Source: Allofournierella massiliensis (GTDB lineage Bacteria; Bacillota; Clostridia; Oscillospirales; Ruminococcaceae). Taken from it: 64,000 bases of DNA. The notes beneath the pieces were generated by a model. The model did not search any database, had not been told where the DNA came from, and saw nothing but the letters and a program-made list of their open reading frames with translations. Shown here piece after piece: positions 3 through 8,482 of the stretch. The DNA is taken from NCBI RefSeq assembly GCF_004345265.1, contig NZ_SLUM01000018.1, positions 1 to 64,000 of the forward strand, written 5' to 3'. The position numbers were made by a program, and so were the translations under genes. Position 1 is the first letter of the stretch. Each line of letters starts with the position of its first letter.

Positions 3-47
3 CAGGAAGTGGAAATCTTCTACCGCTTTATCGGCAAAATCGAATGA
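3..47 (+). CDS. C-terminal tail of a putative serine recombinase (partial)
   Basis: A plus-strand frame enters from outside the window. It ends with the 14 residues QEVEIFYRFIGKIE and a TGA at 45-47. This tail resembles the very C-terminus of large serine recombinases of Firmicute conjugative transposons (DUF4368-type ends with an E-I-x-Y-x-F-I-G pattern). Such recombinase genes often lie at the extreme end of their element, beside the attachment site, and the next feature is a regulator gene cut off at its 5' side. The family call rests on 14 residues plus this context, so it is tentative. Confidence 0.4.
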   Translation, partial: QEVEIFYRFIGKIE

Positions 48-84
48 CACATCTTGAGATACCCAACAATATCTTTAACTAAGG
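48..84. mobile_element. probable end / attachment junction of an integrated element
   Basis: This short AT-rich stretch separates the recombinase-like tail from GC-rich sequence that begins inside an XRE regulator gene. Read upstream from the regulator, the frame is sensible back to about base 82 (E-T-G-Q-T-A-P-D-L). There the Trp expected before that motif is replaced by Arg, and a TAA follows at 76-78. The junction therefore probably lies near 82-84. Only one side of the element is in the window, so the core repeat cannot be defined. Confidence 0.45.
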
Positions 85-600
85 GAAACGGGCCAGACCG
101 CGCCGGATCTGGAACGGCTGCTGGCGGTGAGCAGGCAGCTGGGCACCACCACGGATTATCTGTTGACCGGGCAGCACCCGGCGCTGCGGGAGCAGGGGCC
201 GGACGCGGCCATCTTTTCGGTGGTGGCCACCGGCAGCACCATTGCGGGCCTGCTGGTGGCGGTAATGCTCTGGTACGAAAAGCAGAGCGCCATTGCCACC
301 GCAATCGGCCTGCTGGTCATGGTGATGGGCTGTGTGATCTACGCCATCGGCATGACGGTGGGCGAGCCTGCCAGCCGCCCCCGGGCAAGGCGGCGGTTCT
401 GGGCGGTGAATCTGTGGCTGCTGCCCTTCATCCCCCTGTCCCTGCTGTACAACGTCCTGCTGGGCGGCTTTGTCACTGCGCCCTATCCCGTCCCGGTATC
501 CCCGCTGGCGGGCTATGTGCTGTTCTGGGTGGTCTATCTGGGCGGCTGCGGCATGCTGGAATGGCGGCTGCTGCACGGCGCAAAAGGCAGGCAGAAATAA
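79..600 (+). pseudogene. XRE-family regulator with membrane domain, 5' truncated
   Basis: The frame encodes the last part of an XRE helix-turn-helix domain (PDLERLLAVSRQLGTTTDY followed by LLTG), the usual end of the Cro/C1-type fold. A C-terminal region with four hydrophobic segments follows, in two pairs, so the intact protein would have been a membrane-anchored DNA-binding regulator. The first helices of the HTH and the start codon are missing, and a stop at 76-78 blocks the frame upstream. A GTG at 127 could restart translation but would give a protein without a DNA-binding domain. The gene was probably interrupted by integration of the element to its left. A strong hairpin follows the stop codon. 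Confidence 0.7.
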
Positions 601-646: not shown

Positions 647-2434
647 TTATTCTTCCCGGGGCTCGTCCGCCTCCACCGGGGCTTCCTCCGCTTCGGGCTT
701 CGGTTCGGCAGCTTCAGCAGTCTCCACAGCCTCGGCAGGCTCAGTGGTTTCCGCCTTCTTGGGGGCAGCGCTCTTTTTGGGCTTTGCGGCCTTCTTCGGC
801 TGCTCTGCCGGGGCCTCCGGGGCGGGCTGTTCGTCTTTTGGCTGTGCAGTTTCCGGCGCAGGCTCAGCAGTTTCGGTCACAGGGGCCTCCGCTTCGGCCT
901 TGGCCCTGGGGGCTGCCTTTTTGCGGGCAGGGGCCTTGCGGGCGGGCTTTTCGGGGGCCAGCTCCGGCTTGCCGTTGCGGGCGCAGTAGCTGCGCAGCAG
1001 CTCCTGATAGAAGTTCACAGCCGGGGGCAGCGCCAGAATGGACAGGTTCTCGTTGGCCGCGTGAATGCTGGCGTACTGCTGTTTGTTGATCTCCAGCGGG
1101 GCAAAGCGCAGGGCGTTTTCCACCACGCCCTCATACATGTAGAACCGGGCATCGGTGCCGCCGGTCATGATGTAGGGGGCCACCCCGTAGCCGGGGTAGA
1201 TCTTGCCCATGGTCTCCTCCAGCAGCCGGAAGGCATCGCCGTTAAAGTTCACCTCGGCGCAGGCCGGGTCGGCCTTCAGCACCTCGGTATCCAGCCCGCA
1301 CTTTTTGGCAGCAGCGCGGATGATCTCGATGCTCTCGTCGGTACCCTGATGGGGCATGCAACGCATGTTAGCGGTGACCCAGGCCTGCTGGGGCAGCACG
1401 TTGTAGGCGGGGGAGCCCTGTGCCATGGTGAAGGCGCAGGTGGTGCGCATCATTGCGCCGGCCAGCGGGTTCACACGGGGCAAAAGGAAGCACAGCAGCG
1501 GCTCGAACAGCCACAGGTTGCCCAGCAGCAGCCGCATGCCGAAGCTCATGTTGGGGGCAAGGCGCTGGAACATCTCCCGCAAAGTGGGGGAGAAGCGGGC
1601 CTGGAAGGGGCTGTGCCGGTCGGTTTTGCAGATGAACCTGGCCAGCTGCACCAGAGCGGTGTTCGGCCCGGGGGCGCTGGCATGGCCGCCGGCGGAATTG
1701 GCGGCGAACTTCACGTCCGCATAGCCCTTTTCCACCACGCCCACCATGGCGTAGCGGCCCTTGACCCCGGCCATGGGGGAATCCATGATCATGCCGCCCT
1801 CGTCCAGCAGCAGGCCCAGATGGACCCCCTGCTCCTTGAGCCATGCGGCAATGGCGGGCGCGCCGTCGCCGCCCCATTCCTCGGTGCAGCTGGAGGCCAG
1901 GTACACGTCGCACTCGGGCTTCCAGCCCCCGGCCAGCAGCTCCTCCACCGCCTGCATGAAGCAGAACAGGCTGCCCTTGGTGTCCACGGTGCCGCGGCCC
2001 CATACCGAGCCCTCGGCGATCTCGCCGGAGAAGGGCGGGTATTTCCACTCGCCCTCAGCGGGCACCACGTCGTGGTGGCTCATGATCAGAATGGGCGCAC
2101 CGACGCCGCCGTCCTGCCCGGGGATTTTATAAATCAGGCTGCCGTTGAGCACCGTGCGGGTGGCCGCCTTGTGCACCAGCGGGAACTGCTCCCGCAGCAA
2201 TTTATGGAAGGCCTGGAACTTGCGGCGGCTCACCTGATCCTTTTCCGATACCGTCTCGCACTGAACCAGTTTGGACAGGGTCTCCGCATACTGCTGGGCC
2301 CGCTCCAGATCGGAATCCGGGAACTGGGCCGTGGCGGCGGAGGTAGGCTTCATCTGGATGGCACGGGCGGCTGCAACGCCCAGCAAAACGAGTAAAATCA
2401 GGATGAGAATGAGCAGGATCCATAAAGCGATCAT
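647..2434 (-). CDS. M20-family carboxypeptidase with N-terminal anchor and charged tail
   Basis: This 595-residue zinc peptidase belongs to the M20 Gly-Xaa carboxypeptidase/PM20D1-like group. One membrane segment (residues about 3-22) should anchor it, with the catalytic domain outside. Visible motifs are MSHHDVV (zinc His near 120), WGRGTVDTKG (bridging Asp near 151), TEEWGGD (catalytic and metal Glu near 185) and TGGTDARFY in the C-terminal lid. From about residue 488 an Ala/Pro/Lys/Glu-rich tail of about 107 residues follows; the catalytic family does not need it and it may bind cell wall. The ATG at 2434 was chosen because GGAGG precedes it by 7 bases; a longer open frame to 2557 lacks such a site and runs through the promoter. 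It converges on the broken regulator. Confidence 0.88.
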   Translation of the reverse strand: MIALWILLILILILLVLLGVAAARAIQMKPTSAATAQFPDSDLERAQQYAETLSKLVQCETVSEKDQVSRRKFQAFHKLLREQFPLVHKAATRTVLNGSLIYKIPGQDGGVGAPILIMSHHDVVPAEGEWKYPPFSGEIAEGSVWGRGTVDTKGSLFCFMQAVEELLAGGWKPECDVYLASSCTEEWGGDGAPAIAAWLKEQGVHLGLLLDEGGMIMDSPMAGVKGRYAMVGVVEKGYADVKFAANSAGGHASAPGPNTALVQLARFICKTDRHSPFQARFSPTLREMFQRLAPNMSFGMRLLLGNLWLFEPLLCFLLPRVNPLAGAMMRTTCAFTMAQGSPAYNVLPQQAWVTANMRCMPHQGTDESIEIIRAAAKKCGLDTEVLKADPACAEVNFNGDAFRLLEETMGKIYPGYGVAPYIMTGGTDARFYMYEGVVENALRFAPLEINKQQYASIHAANENLSILALPPAVNFYQELLRSYCARNGKPELAPEKPARKAPARKKAAPRAKAEAEAPVTETAEPAPETAQPKDEQPAPEAPAEQPKKAAKPKKSAAPKKAETTEPAEAVETAEAAEPKPEAEEAPVEADEPREE

Positions 2435-2527
2435 TGGCAGGGGCCTCCTTTGGCTTGTATCAAAAAACGCGCGGAGGGCGCGGAAGATAGCTGTATCTGG
2501 CTGGCGGGCATCTGCCCGCCATGTTTT

Positions 2528-2557
2528 AGTATACCACAGACCAAAACCTTCTGGCAA
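2528..2557 (-). promoter_or_regulatory. promoter of the M20 peptidase gene
   Basis: On the minus strand TTGCCA (2552-2557) and TATACT (2528-2533) are separated by 18 bases. The leader to the ATG at 2434 is about 85 bases. Confidence 0.6.
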
Positions 2558-2591
2558 GGCACGGGGAAAGGCCTTTTTTCAGAGTCCGGAA

Positions 2592-2645
2592 AAGAAAAAA
2601 CGGCGGCTGCCGTATCCCGCTTTCGGGGAAATACGGCAGCCGCCG
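2592..2645 (-). terminator. glnS terminator
   Basis: A perfect 15-bp stem (2601-2615 with 2631-2645) is followed on the minus strand by a T-rich tract (complement of 2591-2600). It lies 29 bases beyond the glnS stop. Confidence 0.85.
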
Positions 2646-2673
2646 GTGTAATTTAAAGCAAGTGTGCGAAAAC

Positions 2674-4341
2674 TTATTTCTGCTCCAGAGTCTTGCTGAA
2701 GCTGTCCTTCAGGGTGACGATGCGGTTCCACACGCCCGGGTGCTTGGAGTCCGGGGTGAAGTAGCCCATGCGCACGAACTGGAACTTCTCGCCGGGCTTG
2801 GCGTCGGCCAGGCTGGCCTCCAGCTTGGCGCCCTTCAGAACCTTCACGGAATCCGGGTTCAGGAAGTCCTTGTAGTCGCTGCCTTCGGGCAGCTCGCCCA
2901 TGTTCTCCTGAGTGAACAGCTTGTCGTACAGGCGAACCTCGGCGTCCACCGCGTGGGCGGCGCTCACCCAGTGGATGGTGCCCTTCACCTTGCGGCCGTC
3001 CACGGGATTGCCGTTGCCGGTCTCCAGGTCAGCGGTGCAGCGCAGCTCCACCACTTCGCCGTTCTCGTCCTTGATGACCTCGTTGCACTTCACGATGTAA
3101 GCGCCCATCAGGCGAACCTCGCCGTCCGGCTTCAGGCGCTGGAACTTCGGCGGGGGTACCTCGGCAAAGTCGCTCTTCTCGATGTACAGGCTGCCGGAGA
3201 AGGCCACCTTGCGGGTGGAGGTGTCGTTTGCGGCCTTGTTGGGGTTGTTGGGAATATCGAAGTACTCCACCTTGCCCTCGGGGTAGTTGGTGATGGTGAG
3301 CTTGATGGGCTCGGTCACGGCCATCCGGCGCAGAGCGGTGGTTTCCAGCTCGGTGCGGATGCAGTACTCCAGCAGGCGGTAGTCCACCAGGCTGTATACC
3401 TTGGAAACGCCGGCCTTCTTCACGAACTCAAAGATGCTGGAGGGGGTGTAGCCGCGGCGGCGCAGACCGCACAGGGTGGGCATGCGGGGGTCGTCCCAGC
3501 CGTCCACGATATTTTTCTCCACCAGCTCGCGCAGGTAGCGCTTGCTCATCACGGTGTTGGACACATTCAGGCGGGCGAACTCGCGCTGGATGGGGAAGGG
3601 CCCCAGATGCAGGTTGTTGATGACCCACTCGTACAGGGGGCGATGGTTCTCGAACTCCAGGCTGCACATGCTGTGGGTGATGCCCTCGATGGCGTCCTGA
3701 ATGGGATGGGCAAAGTCGTACAGGGGGTAGATGCACCAGGCATCGCCCTGACGGTGATGGTGGGCGCGCACGATGCGGTAGATGGCCGGGTCACGCATGT
3801 TCATGTTGGGGCTGGCCATGTCGATCTTGGCGCGCAGGGTGCGGCTGCCGTCCGGGAACTCGCCGGCGCGCATGCGGCGGAACAGATCCAGGTTTTCCTC
3901 CACGCTCCGGTCGCGCCAGGGGCTGGGCTTGCCGGGCTCGGTCAGGGTGCCCCGGTACTCCTGCATCTGCTCGCGGGTCAGATCGCACACATAGGCCTTG
4001 CCTTCCTTGATCAGCTGCTCGGCGTACTCGTAGCACTTCTCAAAGTAGTCGCTGCCATAGTAGATGCCGCCGTTGGGCACAGCACCCAGCCAGCGCAGAT
4101 CCTCTTCGATGCTCTTCACATACTCGTCGTCCTCGCGCACGGGGTTGGTGTCGTCGTAGCGCAGGTTGAATTTGCCGCCGTAGGCGTTGGCAATGCCCCA
4201 GTTGATCCAGATGGCCTTGGCGCTGCCGATGTGCAGGTAGCCGTTGGGCTCCGGCGGGAACCGGGTGTGAATCTCCTTTACGCGGCCTTCCGCCAGATCC
4301 GCGTCGATGATCTCGGTGAGAAAATTGTTCGGCTTTTCCAT
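2674..4341 (-). CDS. glnS: glutaminyl-tRNA synthetase
   Basis: This class I synthetase charges tRNA-Gln with glutamine in the cytosol. Its 555 residues match the usual bacterial GlnRS length. The HIGH signature appears as HIGS (residues 37-40) within PPEPNGYLHIG, and the KMSKS loop as VMSKR near residue 270. The C-terminal half has the two beta-barrel anticodon-binding domains. The ATG at 4341 gives the family-typical N-terminus; a GAGGAG lies about 14 bases upstream, a long spacing. Many Clostridia instead make Gln-tRNA through GatCAB, so GlnRS here implies direct charging, although GatCAB could still serve Asn-tRNA. It is monocistronic, with its own promoter and terminator. Confidence 0.97.
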   Translation of the reverse strand: MEKPNNFLTEIIDADLAEGRVKEIHTRFPPEPNGYLHIGSAKAIWINWGIANAYGGKFNLRYDDTNPVREDDEYVKSIEEDLRWLGAVPNGGIYYGSDYFEKCYEYAEQLIKEGKAYVCDLTREQMQEYRGTLTEPGKPSPWRDRSVEENLDLFRRMRAGEFPDGSRTLRAKIDMASPNMNMRDPAIYRIVRAHHHRQGDAWCIYPLYDFAHPIQDAIEGITHSMCSLEFENHRPLYEWVINNLHLGPFPIQREFARLNVSNTVMSKRYLRELVEKNIVDGWDDPRMPTLCGLRRRGYTPSSIFEFVKKAGVSKVYSLVDYRLLEYCIRTELETTALRRMAVTEPIKLTITNYPEGKVEYFDIPNNPNKAANDTSTRKVAFSGSLYIEKSDFAEVPPPKFQRLKPDGEVRLMGAYIVKCNEVIKDENGEVVELRCTADLETGNGNPVDGRKVKGTIHWVSAAHAVDAEVRLYDKLFTQENMGELPEGSDYKDFLNPDSVKVLKGAKLEASLADAKPGEKFQFVRMGYFTPDSKHPGVWNRIVTLKDSFSKTLEQK

Positions 4342-4472: not shown

Positions 4473-6380
4473 TTAAAGCCGATCGGGATGCAGAAACCGG
4501 CGCAGCTCGTCGGCATCCATGGGCATGGCGTAGTAAAAGCCCTGCAGATAATCCGCCCCCAGCTTCACCAGCTGCTGGGCCTGCTGGCGGCTCTCCACGC
4601 CCTGGGCGATCACCAGTTTGCCGCAGTCGTGCACGAAGTCGATCAGGTGAGCCAGCAGCTTCGGATCCCGGGCAAGGCAGGTGCGCATCACATAGCGGTC
4701 CAGCTTCACCGCCCCCGCCTCGGGCAGATCCAGAATACGGGTCAGGTTGGAATGCCCCGCGCCGAAGTCGTCCACCGTGATGGCGGCCCCGGCCGCAAAC
4801 AGCTGCCGGATAAGCAGGGGCACTCCGTCGGTGCCCCGCAGGCTGCGGCTTTCGGTGAGCTCGAAGGCCAGCCGGGAGCAGGGAACCCTCTTTTCCCGGG
4901 CCATGCGCACGAAGCGGTCGGCAAGATCCGGCGCGGCCAGCTGCAGCGGGCTCAGGTTCACGCTCACCCGCTCCACCGACCGGAACAGCTCTGGATCGGC
5001 AGCCATGGCTTCCAGAAGAGAATCAAAGATCACATCGCCCATCCGCTCTGCCAGCCCGCTGCGCTCGGCAATGGGCACAAAGGCGTCCGGCCCAAGCAGA
5101 CCCAGCTGTTCGTCGTCGATGCGGGGCAGCACCTCCAGCTGCACCGTTCGCCCGGTGCGGGCATCCAGCACCGGCAGATAGCGCAGCGCAAAGCGGCCCC
5201 GGTCCAGCGCGCCGGTCAAAGCGCGGCGCACCGCCAGCGTGCGCTGCAGGCGGGCCAGTGCCTGATCGTTCACCCACTGGGGCGCGGCATGAACCGGCCC
5301 GTCCGGGGTGAATTCCTCCAGAAGATCCAGCAAAAGCAGCGCCTGATCCAGATCCGGTGCGCAGCGCAGCCCGTCCATCAGGATGGCGGGCTGGGTCAGG
5401 GTGACGGTGCAGCCCTTCAGAGCCCAGCCTTCGTTCAGCCCGGTGGCCAGCTCGGCCATCTGGCTGCTGAAGCCCTCCCGGCTGCCCTGGCTGAACACCA
5501 CAAAGCGGCCTGCCTGGCTGAGGTAAAACACCGTGCAGCGGGGCGTTGCGGCGCGCAGCCGTTTTGCGGTCGGGGCCAGCCATTGGGCGGGGGAAATACC
5601 GCCTGCGTCGTTTGCAGGGGCGAGGCGCAGAAAGGCAAGGCAGTATGGCTTGTGGAACTGGTAACAGTCCCACAGGGTATCGGAAAGGGCGCGGTAGTTG
5701 GGGCATCCGCTGGCGGAGTGAATCTGGCTGCCGGGCAGCGGCGCACCCAGCGCCGCGGGAAGCAGAGCCAGCGCCACCACAAACCAGAACAGGCGCACGT
5801 TGCCCGCGGTCAGCTGCAGCGGCATTGCTGCCAGCACAAAACCGGCCATGCAGCCGGCGCATTGCCGCCCCGGGCCCGGTTTGGCCCTGCGCATCCAGAG
5901 GCAGCCGAAGACCAGCAGCAGCCAGCAGCAGGCCAGAAGCGGCAGATACAGCGGCTCGTTTTCAAAGCCGCCCTGTGCCCGGGGCCGGTAAAGCAGCCCC
6001 AGCCAGGGGCTGAGCAGCGCGGCCAGAATTCCGACGCAGCACACAAGGCCGGTCAGCCGCATCATCCGGCGCAGCTGCTTCCCGGAGACCTTTGCCAGAA
6101 ACAGGGTGCACAGCACAAAACAGGCAAAAAACAGAAACTGGCTGATCATCCAGGCTGCCAGCAGCAGACAGGCTGCCCGGTCCGGCAGCCAGGGCCAGGC
6201 CCCGGCGCGCACCGGGGTGGCCAGAACATCCAGCGCGGTGGCGGCAAGGGCGCTGGCGAACGTGCGATACAGGGCGGCGCGGGTCAGGGTGTGCGCGCCA
6301 CGCCGCATCAGGCAGATCAGAGCCAGCGCGGCCAGAAACACAAATGCCGCCATCTGAAAATAAATGTTGTAGTGGATCAT
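4473..6380 (-). CDS. membrane EAL-domain protein, probably catalytically impaired
   Basis: This 635-residue protein has about seven N-terminal membrane segments (residues 1-230), a linker that may be a remnant GGDEF fold, and a C-terminal EAL domain. EAL enzymes hydrolyse cyclic di-GMP. Seen motifs are LEVLPR in place of EALxR, VNLSPLQL, FELTES, VDDFGAGHSN (Asp537/Asp538), VKLDR (Lys559) and LQGFYY (Gln613). The AEGVE motif reads AQGVE, so the metal-site Glu is Gln593 (codon at 4602-4604). Loss of this acid in the family is expected to abolish or greatly lower hydrolysis, so the protein may act as a c-di-GMP sensor. Its ATG overlaps the GGDEF stop (ATGA), and GGAGG precedes it by 7 bases, so the two genes are translationally coupled. 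Confidence 0.85.
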   Translation of the reverse strand: MIHYNIYFQMAAFVFLAALALICLMRRGAHTLTRAALYRTFASALAATALDVLATPVRAGAWPWLPDRAACLLLAAWMISQFLFFACFVLCTLFLAKVSGKQLRRMMRLTGLVCCVGILAALLSPWLGLLYRPRAQGGFENEPLYLPLLACCWLLLVFGCLWMRRAKPGPGRQCAGCMAGFVLAAMPLQLTAGNVRLFWFVVALALLPAALGAPLPGSQIHSASGCPNYRALSDTLWDCYQFHKPYCLAFLRLAPANDAGGISPAQWLAPTAKRLRAATPRCTVFYLSQAGRFVVFSQGSREGFSSQMAELATGLNEGWALKGCTVTLTQPAILMDGLRCAPDLDQALLLLDLLEEFTPDGPVHAAPQWVNDQALARLQRTLAVRRALTGALDRGRFALRYLPVLDARTGRTVQLEVLPRIDDEQLGLLGPDAFVPIAERSGLAERMGDVIFDSLLEAMAADPELFRSVERVSVNLSPLQLAAPDLADRFVRMAREKRVPCSRLAFELTESRSLRGTDGVPLLIRQLFAAGAAITVDDFGAGHSNLTRILDLPEAGAVKLDRYVMRTCLARDPKLLAHLIDFVHDCGKLVIAQGVESRQQAQQLVKLGADYLQGFYYAMPMDADELRRFLHPDRL

Positions 6381-8274
6381 GGCCGTTCCTCCCGTGCTCC
6401 AAGCTCCCGCAGCCCGCGGGTGGATACCCAGCAGCCCCGGTTCCGCTTGGCCGCGTAAAGGGCCACGTCCGCCTCCTGATAGGCCTGATTCAGGGGGACG
6501 GCAGCCGGGTCGAACAGATGAACGCCCACGCTCACGCCCACCGGAACGCCCAGCTCCAGCTTGCTGGCAAGGCCGGGCAGCTCGGTGCAGATGCGGCCGG
6601 CCAGTGCCTCGGCAGTGGCCCAGTCCGCGCCGGGCAAAAGCACAAGAAACTCATCGCCGCCCAGCCGTACGGGGGTACCGGAGGCGGCACTCAGCTGCTC
6701 CAGCAGCCGGGCAACCTCCCGCAGCAGCACATCGCCCACCGGGTGGCCCAGCAGGTCGTTCACTTCCTTGAAATGGTCCAGATCCATCATCAGAAGGGCT
6801 GCCTGTTTGGGCGGGTCGGGCCGGGCCGGGCCAGCAGCTCGTTTATCTTTACGCGCAGCACCCGCCGGTTGTACAGATTGGTCAGGGGATCCCGGTTGGC
6901 CCGCTGGCGCAGCTCATCCTCCCGGCGGCGTTCCTCGGTGATGTCCTCAAAGGTCACGATGGCGTGGGTGGGGGCCTGCCCGGGAATGCGCACGGCGGTC
7001 AGGGTCACACGGGTCCAGCGGTATTCGCTCTGATCCGGCCTGCGCACCAGAAAATCGCCCTGCACCGGCTCCTGGGTGGTGCGGATCCGATGGAACAGCG
7101 CCAGGAATCCGGTGGAGTGCTGGGGAGCCACTGTGCCGTTCTGAGCCAGAGTGGCAGGTTCCACCGGCGCCCCGGTCCGGGTGGTGTCGGTCTCATCGCA
7201 GGCGGTCATGGTATGGCCGGCCAGATCGTAAACAAACAGGGTGATGGCGGTGTGCTGAAGAGCCATTGCCAGCAGCTGATTGCTGGTGCGCAGCGAATCC
7301 TCGGCCCGCTGTACCTGGCCCTCCCGCTGGCGGTGATAGATGGTCAGCAGCACCAGCATCACCACCGAAGCGGCCAGCATTTTCAGCGCCATGATCATCA
7401 CCAGCCTGGTCTCCTGGGCGTTGGTGGCCAGCAGGGCGCTCCGGGGTACATCCTGATAGAGATACCAGTCCCGGATGCCGGTGGAAACGCACAGCCAGGC
7501 CACCGCCCCGTCGCCGGTGCCGGCGGTGCCGAAGCTGCCGGTTTCCTCTTCCGGCAAGCTGCCCAGCGTGCGGCCGGCATCGGTGTTCCAGAAGCTGCCG
7601 CCGGGCTCCAGCTGGTATTTCAGGTTGTCGCAGGCATAGATCACCATGCCGTCTGCCTGGAACACCGCCACCCGGCTTTCGTCCGACAGGCCGTACAGCG
7701 TGAGTGACCGGGCCACCTGCTCCACCTTCAGAACGCCCAGCACCGCGCCGGTTACCGGCTGCTCCGGGCTCACCCGCACCGGCACATACACATAGAACCG
7801 GTCGTCCTTGTAGGTGGGGCTGTTGTAAACGGCGGAATAGCCGCTCTGCCCGTCGAAGGCGCTTTCCAGCGCTTCCTCACTGGAAAGATCCAGTGAAATG
7901 CCCTGGGACGAGATGGCCTGTTTGTCCAGCGAGACGGCCCACATCTGGGCAAAATCGCTGCGCTGGAAGTATTCGTCCAGCAGCTGGCGCACATCCTCCT
8001 CGCTGCTGCCGGCGGGCAGGCTGGCGATGGCGGTGGCCGCCCGCTGCACATAGCTCATCTGCTGTTCCAGATAACTGTTCAGCGCAGCGATGCTGGAGCG
8101 GGCGGTATTCTGCAAAGAGTCCTGGCTGGAAGCAATGGTGTAACGGTTAAGCTGAAGAGTGAAATCCAGTGTGCTGAACACCAGCGTTACAAACAGAAGC
8201 ACAAGCCCCAGAAGGGCGAGCCAAAGCTGCCGGGCGGTGGACCTCCAGCGGCGGAAAACGGACAAATGTTTCAT
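6377..8274 (-). pseudogene. Cache-PAS-GGDEF diguanylate cyclase, frameshifted
   Basis: Two overlapping frames form one gene. The first (8274 to about 6790) encodes a membrane segment, an extracellular Cache-like sensor domain, a second membrane segment, a PAS-like domain, and the start of a GGDEF domain (DPLTNLYNRR). It ends early in a TGA. The second frame continues exactly with LLMMDLDHFKEVNDLLGH and the intact active site LGGDEF. The break falls in three tandem GGGCC units (6818-6832). Removing one unit joins the frames as ELLARPDPPKQAALL, a natural GGDEF sequence. A product of the first frame alone would be a sensor without cyclase activity. The ATG at 8274 has AGGAG about 10 bases upstream. 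The gene is either a recent pseudogene, phase-variable, or carries a sequencing error. Confidence 0.8.
6818..6832. repeat. (GGGCC)3 tandem repeat at the GGDEF frameshift
   Basis: Three perfect copies of a 5-bp unit lie inside the GGDEF coding region. Each unit gained or lost changes the reading frame; two copies would restore it. Confidence 0.85.
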
Positions 8275-8482
8275 CAGAAGATCACTCCTCTGGCCTTGGG
8301 ATTCCGGGCAAAAAACAGCCATGGCGGCGTGGAAAAGCAGAATTGCCCAATCTTTGGCTTTTCTGGTTAAAATTATAGTAAAAAGCAGCCGGGCGTGCAA
8401 GCTTTAACCATACAATTCGCGCAGGAATTTTTCCGCCTGTGACCCCAAAATCGGTAAGATGTGCCAAAGTAAGCTGTAAACA

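Follow-up and report, generated by a model that had tools for sequence, protein, structure and literature searches.

The window, that is, the whole stretch of 64,000 bases that was analysed (G000:C18:1-64000, from a contig of 85,489 bases in an assembly of 76 contigs), opens inside the right end of a mobile element that has split the gene of an XRE-family regulator. The splitting, which the initial annotation had put forward, is confirmed as an observation, and the accompanying interpretation, according to which a serine-recombinase element lies to the left and has inserted into the XRE gene, is supported by the empty site in relatives. The finding is wider than was noted at that time, as the target is a protein family and not one gene. 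Judged from sequence, the structure is very probably an integrated element of the mobilizable type, the DUF4368 recombinase of which uses a bipartite, GG-centred site that makes the XRE family its attachment site. The broader proposition, which we consider likely though somewhat less firmly so, is that in one clade of serine integrases a bipartite site has evolved on the XRE codons K-W-E-x-G-x-x-x-P-D, so that the family is targeted in any host and a different regulator is knocked out with each landing.

The features at the window start are listed in Table 1.

Table 1. Features at the left end of the window (window coordinates).
Feature	Position	Strand	Basis
End of a DUF4368 large serine recombinase (14 codons and the stop)	3-47	+	Alignment; Pfam DUF4368 on the C7 and C42 copies
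Terminal arm on the right side of the element (attR arm), with CTTTAACTAAGGGAAACG at its end; gives codons E-T before the host frame	48-90	+	Near-invariant across XRE targets
GG, putative crossover dinucleotide; bases 1-2 of the Gly codon in XRE W-E-x-G	91-92	+	Common to both ends
Remaining 3' portion of the interrupted XRE gene: HTH_3 second half and, after it, stretches that are hydrophobic by eye	91-600	+	

Translation of the recombinase remnant yields QEVEIFYRFIGKIE followed by the stop codon, and the recombinase-like C-terminus that had been seen to stop at 47 is borne out, the same C-terminus being present in a recombinase fragment on contig C7 and in the complete recombinase on C42. Likewise, the regulator had rightly been described as in frame back to about 82: the frame is open from 79 to the stop codon at 598-600, with an in-frame TAA at 76-78. 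The bases up to 90, including the E and T codons at 85-90, belong to the element and not to the host, whose DNA begins with the shared GG. The left and right arms of the element form imperfect inverted repeats around the core (by eye), as is to be expected of a serine integrase attP. Since base 1 of the window is the contig end and lies inside the element, no sequence exists further left on this contig.

The 5' half of the regulator, carrying the 5' part of the helix-turn-helix that is missing from the window, was found on contig C58, where the other end of the element occupies C58:5806-5830. It comprises 46 codons, the last of which are element sequence. On the HTH_3 profile the C58 half extends over positions 1-33, the window half over 22-55; the window fragment alone gave no Pfam match. 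Homologues of this fragment (84% identity) lie in long stop-free frames in three of the six other genomes of the genus (G025, G137 and G261), which provides the comparison with relatives having an intact gene that had been called for. In the intact G025 locus (L174), whose uninterrupted gene matches HTH_3 at E 1e-18 (Pfam), the C58 flank aligns with bases 13-1508 (90.1%) and the window, from its base 91 onwards, with bases 1507-3504 (90.8%). The two flanks thus lie end to end with an overlap of two bases, GG, and this 2-base core is the short direct repeat whose presence had been anticipated. In G137 and G261 (L172 and L173) the flanks are adjacent as well, with an overlap of 10 bases, as the element arm is similar to the target over 8 bases and the window alignment accordingly begins at base 83, inside the arm. 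Adjacency of the flanks on an intact gene settles that the window gene was split at this place. Neither an upstream region devoid of a recombinase nor a truncated regulator conserved in element-free strains, the two outcomes that would have spoken against the initial reading, was encountered. From its sequence, the split regulator is most likely without function, its 3' part lacking the first half of the DNA-binding domain. That the left end of the window is instead an assembly chimera formed at a repeat is hardly credible: base 1 is indeed a contig end within a multi-copy element, but this assembly also contains the other half of the gene, and the junction type recurs in 77 loci (among the best 80 of 411 matches, described below), some of them in records titled complete genome.

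The same genome holds further copies. Window bases 1-120 recur at C7:559-678 with 93% identity, and a second, shorter recurrence at C42:3544-3623 shows 78% identity; both of these right ends also enter XRE genes, which differ from that of the window and from each other. Altogether, searches of the assembly gave three right ends (C18, C7 and C42) and three left ends (C58, C39 and C48); the host DNA at each of the six is one half of an XRE (HTH_3) domain gene, and the break falls at the same codons every time. The three left halves match HTH_3 positions 1-33, 3-34 and 1-33, the domain breaking off behind position 33 or 34. By exclusion and resemblance, C39 is the putative partner of C7, and C48 that of C42. 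In addition, C61 carries a partial match of 80% from which the terminal bases are absent. HTH_3 matches number 66 in this genome and make up only about 0.3% of its bases by our own arithmetic, yet all three right ends lie in HTH_3 genes, which is beyond chance.

With respect to the content of the element, the complete recombinase on C42 comprises Resolvase, Recombinase, Zn_ribbon_recom and DUF4368 domains, of which the C7 fragment (200 residues; Pfam DUF4368 at E 1.1e-23) retains the last two only. Genes for a Mob_Pre relaxase and for a RepA_N protein lie upstream of the recombinase on C42, the body of the window copy being off the contig. The small gene preceding the recombinase had no Pfam match; presumably, it is TnpW-like. 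Hence, features of an integrative mobilizable element are found in the form of an integrase of its own and of defined ends, whose arms are inverted repeats and which share a 2-base core, together with the relaxase on C42. Where both ends could be located (30 loci), the element measures 6.9 to 11.4 kb, a length that would be small for a self-transmissible one. A contig of 7,518 bases (L083) consists of one whole element from core to core and may represent either several repeat copies collapsed into one or the element in the form of a circle.

Relatives were collected by a scan of genome contigs, from which the best 80 of 411 matches were taken, with recombinases 73-98% identical to the query. 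According to their record titles these 80 represent many genera of Clostridia, besides a few genera that we take to be Negativicutes and Erysipelotrichia. A right flank was considered readable at a length of at least 100 bases, which retained 77 of the 80 loci and dropped L083, L093 and L118. XRE domains were scored in the expected frame at E 0.01 by an HMM for which 28 HTH_3 copies from the genome of the window were the only input. Within these best 80 of 411, 70 of the 77 right flanks enter the second half of an XRE domain; strict calls (expected frame, E <=0.01) account for 68 of the 77, and the leniently counted remainder are L074, with its XRE in another frame, and L150, a weak match at E 0.047. 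The HMM detected 0/76 in reversed peptides and 0/36 and 1/46 in the other frames, the single case being L074. The seven non-XRE right flanks among the 77 are L075, L077, L085, L086, L096, L111 and L115. Joining both flanks at GG restored an XRE domain in 25 of 31 loci drawn from the same 80, against none for reversed sequences, where the 25 include L104, in which only the 3' half looks like XRE. The expected phase was observed in 28 of the 31 joined loci, with L074, L096 and L111 as exceptions. For each joined locus the best of the three phases was taken, a minimum of 8 codons being required on either side; an open frame in 31/31 is therefore by itself no test. The joined set is made up of loci whose left end is present in the stretch analysed for each of them, leaves aside L083, which has no host flank, and was cleared of one false left-end match (L081). 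Thirty further right-end loci (L023-L052), which partly overlap the genome-contig set, were kept out of the 77; among them L036, L039 and L050 are non-XRE by eye and the flank of L041 is too short.

At 75% identity, 76 of the right flanks from the best 80 of 411 fall into 67 target groups, and most of them are therefore separate targets. This diversity bears on the notion that the XRE gene is a regulator borne by the element itself at its end, in which case nothing would have been split. XRE regulators are often carried by mobile elements, and this speaks for the notion; against it stand the 67 groups, the three different XRE genes entered by the copies within one genome and the three relatives that possess the same DNA on both sides with no element in between. 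It is already refuted for the window copy and exceedingly improbable in general.

Beyond the genome contigs, seven matches at about 60% identity or more were obtained from plasmid and phage records, of which five were examined (all except H1 and H3); their flanks are XRE in three cases and non-XRE in two. The two are an Enterococcus faecium plasmid, in which a 60% identical recombinase is followed by a non-XRE flank with a permease-like frame by eye, and a Lactobacillus amylovorus plasmid relative. In the latter record (L236), after position 7458, the relative of the element adjoins short repeats that look CRISPR-like by eye. The annotation of an independent record agrees with this picture: on a plasmid of Pusillibacter faecalis the element is located between a 165-base gene annotated as 'helix-turn-helix transcriptional regulator' and one annotated as 'XRE family transcriptional regulator', and it carries a predicted aadE gene for aminoglycoside resistance. 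Hence, target choice bears on the spread of resistance.

The XRE preference is accordingly strong but not absolute, and the question arises whether it calls for specific recognition. A recombinase of low specificity, demanding little beyond the GG core, might strike XRE genes frequently just because such genes are abundant and can be spared; the accessible text of a survey (PMC10083194) portrays DUF4368 recombinases as multi-targeting for the most part, disruption of XRE genes is plausibly tolerated, and non-XRE targets do exist. Nevertheless, HTH_3 amounts to about 0.3% of the genome as against XRE in 70 of 77 targets (best 80 of 411), and the XRE insertions, L074 excepted, fall at the same codon and thus at a fixed position within the domain, which renders low specificity an improbable account, if the least improbable of the alternatives weighed here.

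At left junctions the target reads ...AARTGGGARNNN-GG and is followed by element sequence AGTTTCCC, GGTTTCAC or close variants, while right junctions consist of element sequence ...CTTTAACTAAGGGAAACG-GG or CTTTAACTATGTGATACC-GG followed by the target. The E-T or D-T codons preceding the right-hand core are supplied by the element and consequently hardly vary. Information in the target is high at AAATGGGA, at GG and, further on, at C-C-x-G-A, which correspond to codons K-W-E, G and P-D, respectively. Since XRE codons are conserved anyway, conservation of the flanks is by itself no proof of recognition. Behind the core, the right half-site [CT]CNGA is present in 67 of the 77 loci (best 80 of 411; 64/70 XRE and 3/7 non-XRE), compared with a mean of 1.6/77 in shuffled flanks and 1/76 at a distance of sixty bases downstream. 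That the non-XRE targets L075, L096 and L111 carry this half-site, against the 1.6/77 of shuffled flanks, favours recognition of that half at the level of DNA, and the very existence of non-XRE targets (7/77, and 2/5 in plasmid or phage records) likewise argues that recognition acts on DNA. The left motif occurs 228 times across 41 genomes, versus 140 times for the reversed control; taken alone, it lies in XRE genes at 6 of its 10 sites in the window's genome and, among relatives, at 12 of 22 sampled sites (one locus per genome, 22 genomes). As the full explanation of the XRE preference the left half-site alone was considered and found insufficient, the XRE share of insertions (70/77, best 80 of 411) exceeding these 12/22 with a Fisher p of 3e-4. 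For the both-flank set, 25/31 against the same 12/22, the excess is non-significant (p 0.068).

As for the core, GA had been considered first, after the core of TndX, until comparison of left and right ends led to the GG of the Gly codon. GG is present at both ends in 30 of the 31 both-flank loci and in 31 of 32 compared rows when L083, which lacks a host flank, is included. GA at both ends, as in the central GA of TndX-type targets, was found in L104 only, and GA replaces GG at the right end in L090, L124 and L136.

In mechanistic terms, the window begins with the right terminus of an integrated element, very probably an integrative mobilizable one, whose DUF4368 serine recombinase would perform a single crossover at GG between two recognised DNA half-sites. 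The left half-site would be approximately AARTGGGAR-NNN (codons K-W-E-x) and the right one approximately [CT]C-N-GA, about ten bases past GG (codons P-D), such that jointly they would span codons K-W-E-x-G-x-x-x-P-D. In the XRE helix-turn-helix fold, these codons presumably cover the last part of the recognition helix together with the turn behind it. Both half-sites may well be read by the recombinase itself, GG would then be the point of crossover, and integration would probably proceed via a circular form. As the XRE domain is conserved and present in dozens of copies per genome, the whole gene family would in effect be the attachment site, and targeting of a family may have been favoured since hardly any new host would lack a site. 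Every insertion would cut one regulator short about 33 positions into the 55-position HTH_3 domain and is thereby expected to inactivate it.

Inactivation need not be final if the element acts as a reversible switch, in which precise excision restores the regulator in the manner of gene-intervening elements of sporulation genes. Such elements are known, according to the accessible part of the literature (PMC5595907), and a crossover at identical GG should restore the codons exactly, but the targets are many different XRE genes, unlike those of a dedicated switch; we therefore deem this improbable too, slightly more so than low specificity. If targeting of the XRE family holds true, it would explain how one type of element can reside in many genera of gut Clostridia, as well as in a few Negativicutes and Erysipelotrichia, without one conserved address, and every arrival amounts to the knock-out of a regulator. 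Moreover, an attachment site formed by a family of paralogues offers a clear-cut natural system in which to study the evolution of specificity in serine integrases.

The nearest precedents are Tn5397 and an XRE-gene IME of Streptococcus suis. Tn5397 of C. difficile, a conjugative element of 21 kb related to Tn916 and moved by TndX, prefers DNA coding for the Fic domain, the ubiquity of which has been suggested to make it a suitable target, and a central GA was reported for its target in B. subtilis (PMC4430133, in the sections accessible). Tn5397 and the present element are both serine-recombinase elements with a preference for DNA of a widespread protein domain, as far as those sections describe Tn5397, yet domain and core differ, being Fic and GA there and XRE and GG here; furthermore, many paralogues in many genera are struck at one codon in the present case. 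In S. suis, an IME with a serine integrase resides within an HTH_XRE regulator gene, which was reported as a new integration site (PMC7168690, accessible part). This resembles the present situation, although the accessible text lists one such site, places related integrases at various intergenic sites and gives neither a codon position nor targeting of the whole family. Tn4451/Tn4453 (TnpX) likewise combine a serine recombinase with a mobilization gene and a 2-bp target site (PMC3158075, text seen in part), but TnpX elements are characterised by low integration specificity in the accessible portion of another source (PMC5704250). The survey mentioned above found closely related DUF4368 recombinases to hit many clusters of target genes and called them relaxed or endowed with more complex motifs; the DUF4368 domain is common to these multi-targeting recombinases and to the element described here. 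Because the Pfam enrichment of target genes in that survey omitted the multi-targeting clade, an XRE family target would not show there (PMC10083194, accessible text). In summary of these comparisons, domain-coding DNA as a target has precedent, to which the present case adds XRE as the family that is hit, the precise codons and the spread over many genera.

Within the genome, the preference appears to be restricted: downstream of eight more distant recombinases (28-38% identical to the query) no XRE half was seen by eye, so that the XRE preference is seen only in this clade. Several of the eight stand in a tandem array, in which the next gene is another recombinase. Outside the window, G000:C5:126558-133284 contains five recombinase matches, one of them partial, arranged head to tail.

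Two further observations concern other parts of the window. On the minus strand of 6377-8400 a GGDEF domain is spread over two frames, owing to a frameshift or a sequencing error: a frame of 536 codons ends in what looks by eye like the start of GGDEF, and the next frame matches GGDEF positions 37-157. Also on the minus strand, 650-2440 encodes an M20 peptidase whose long C-terminal tail has a high content of Ala, Lys, Pro and Glu.
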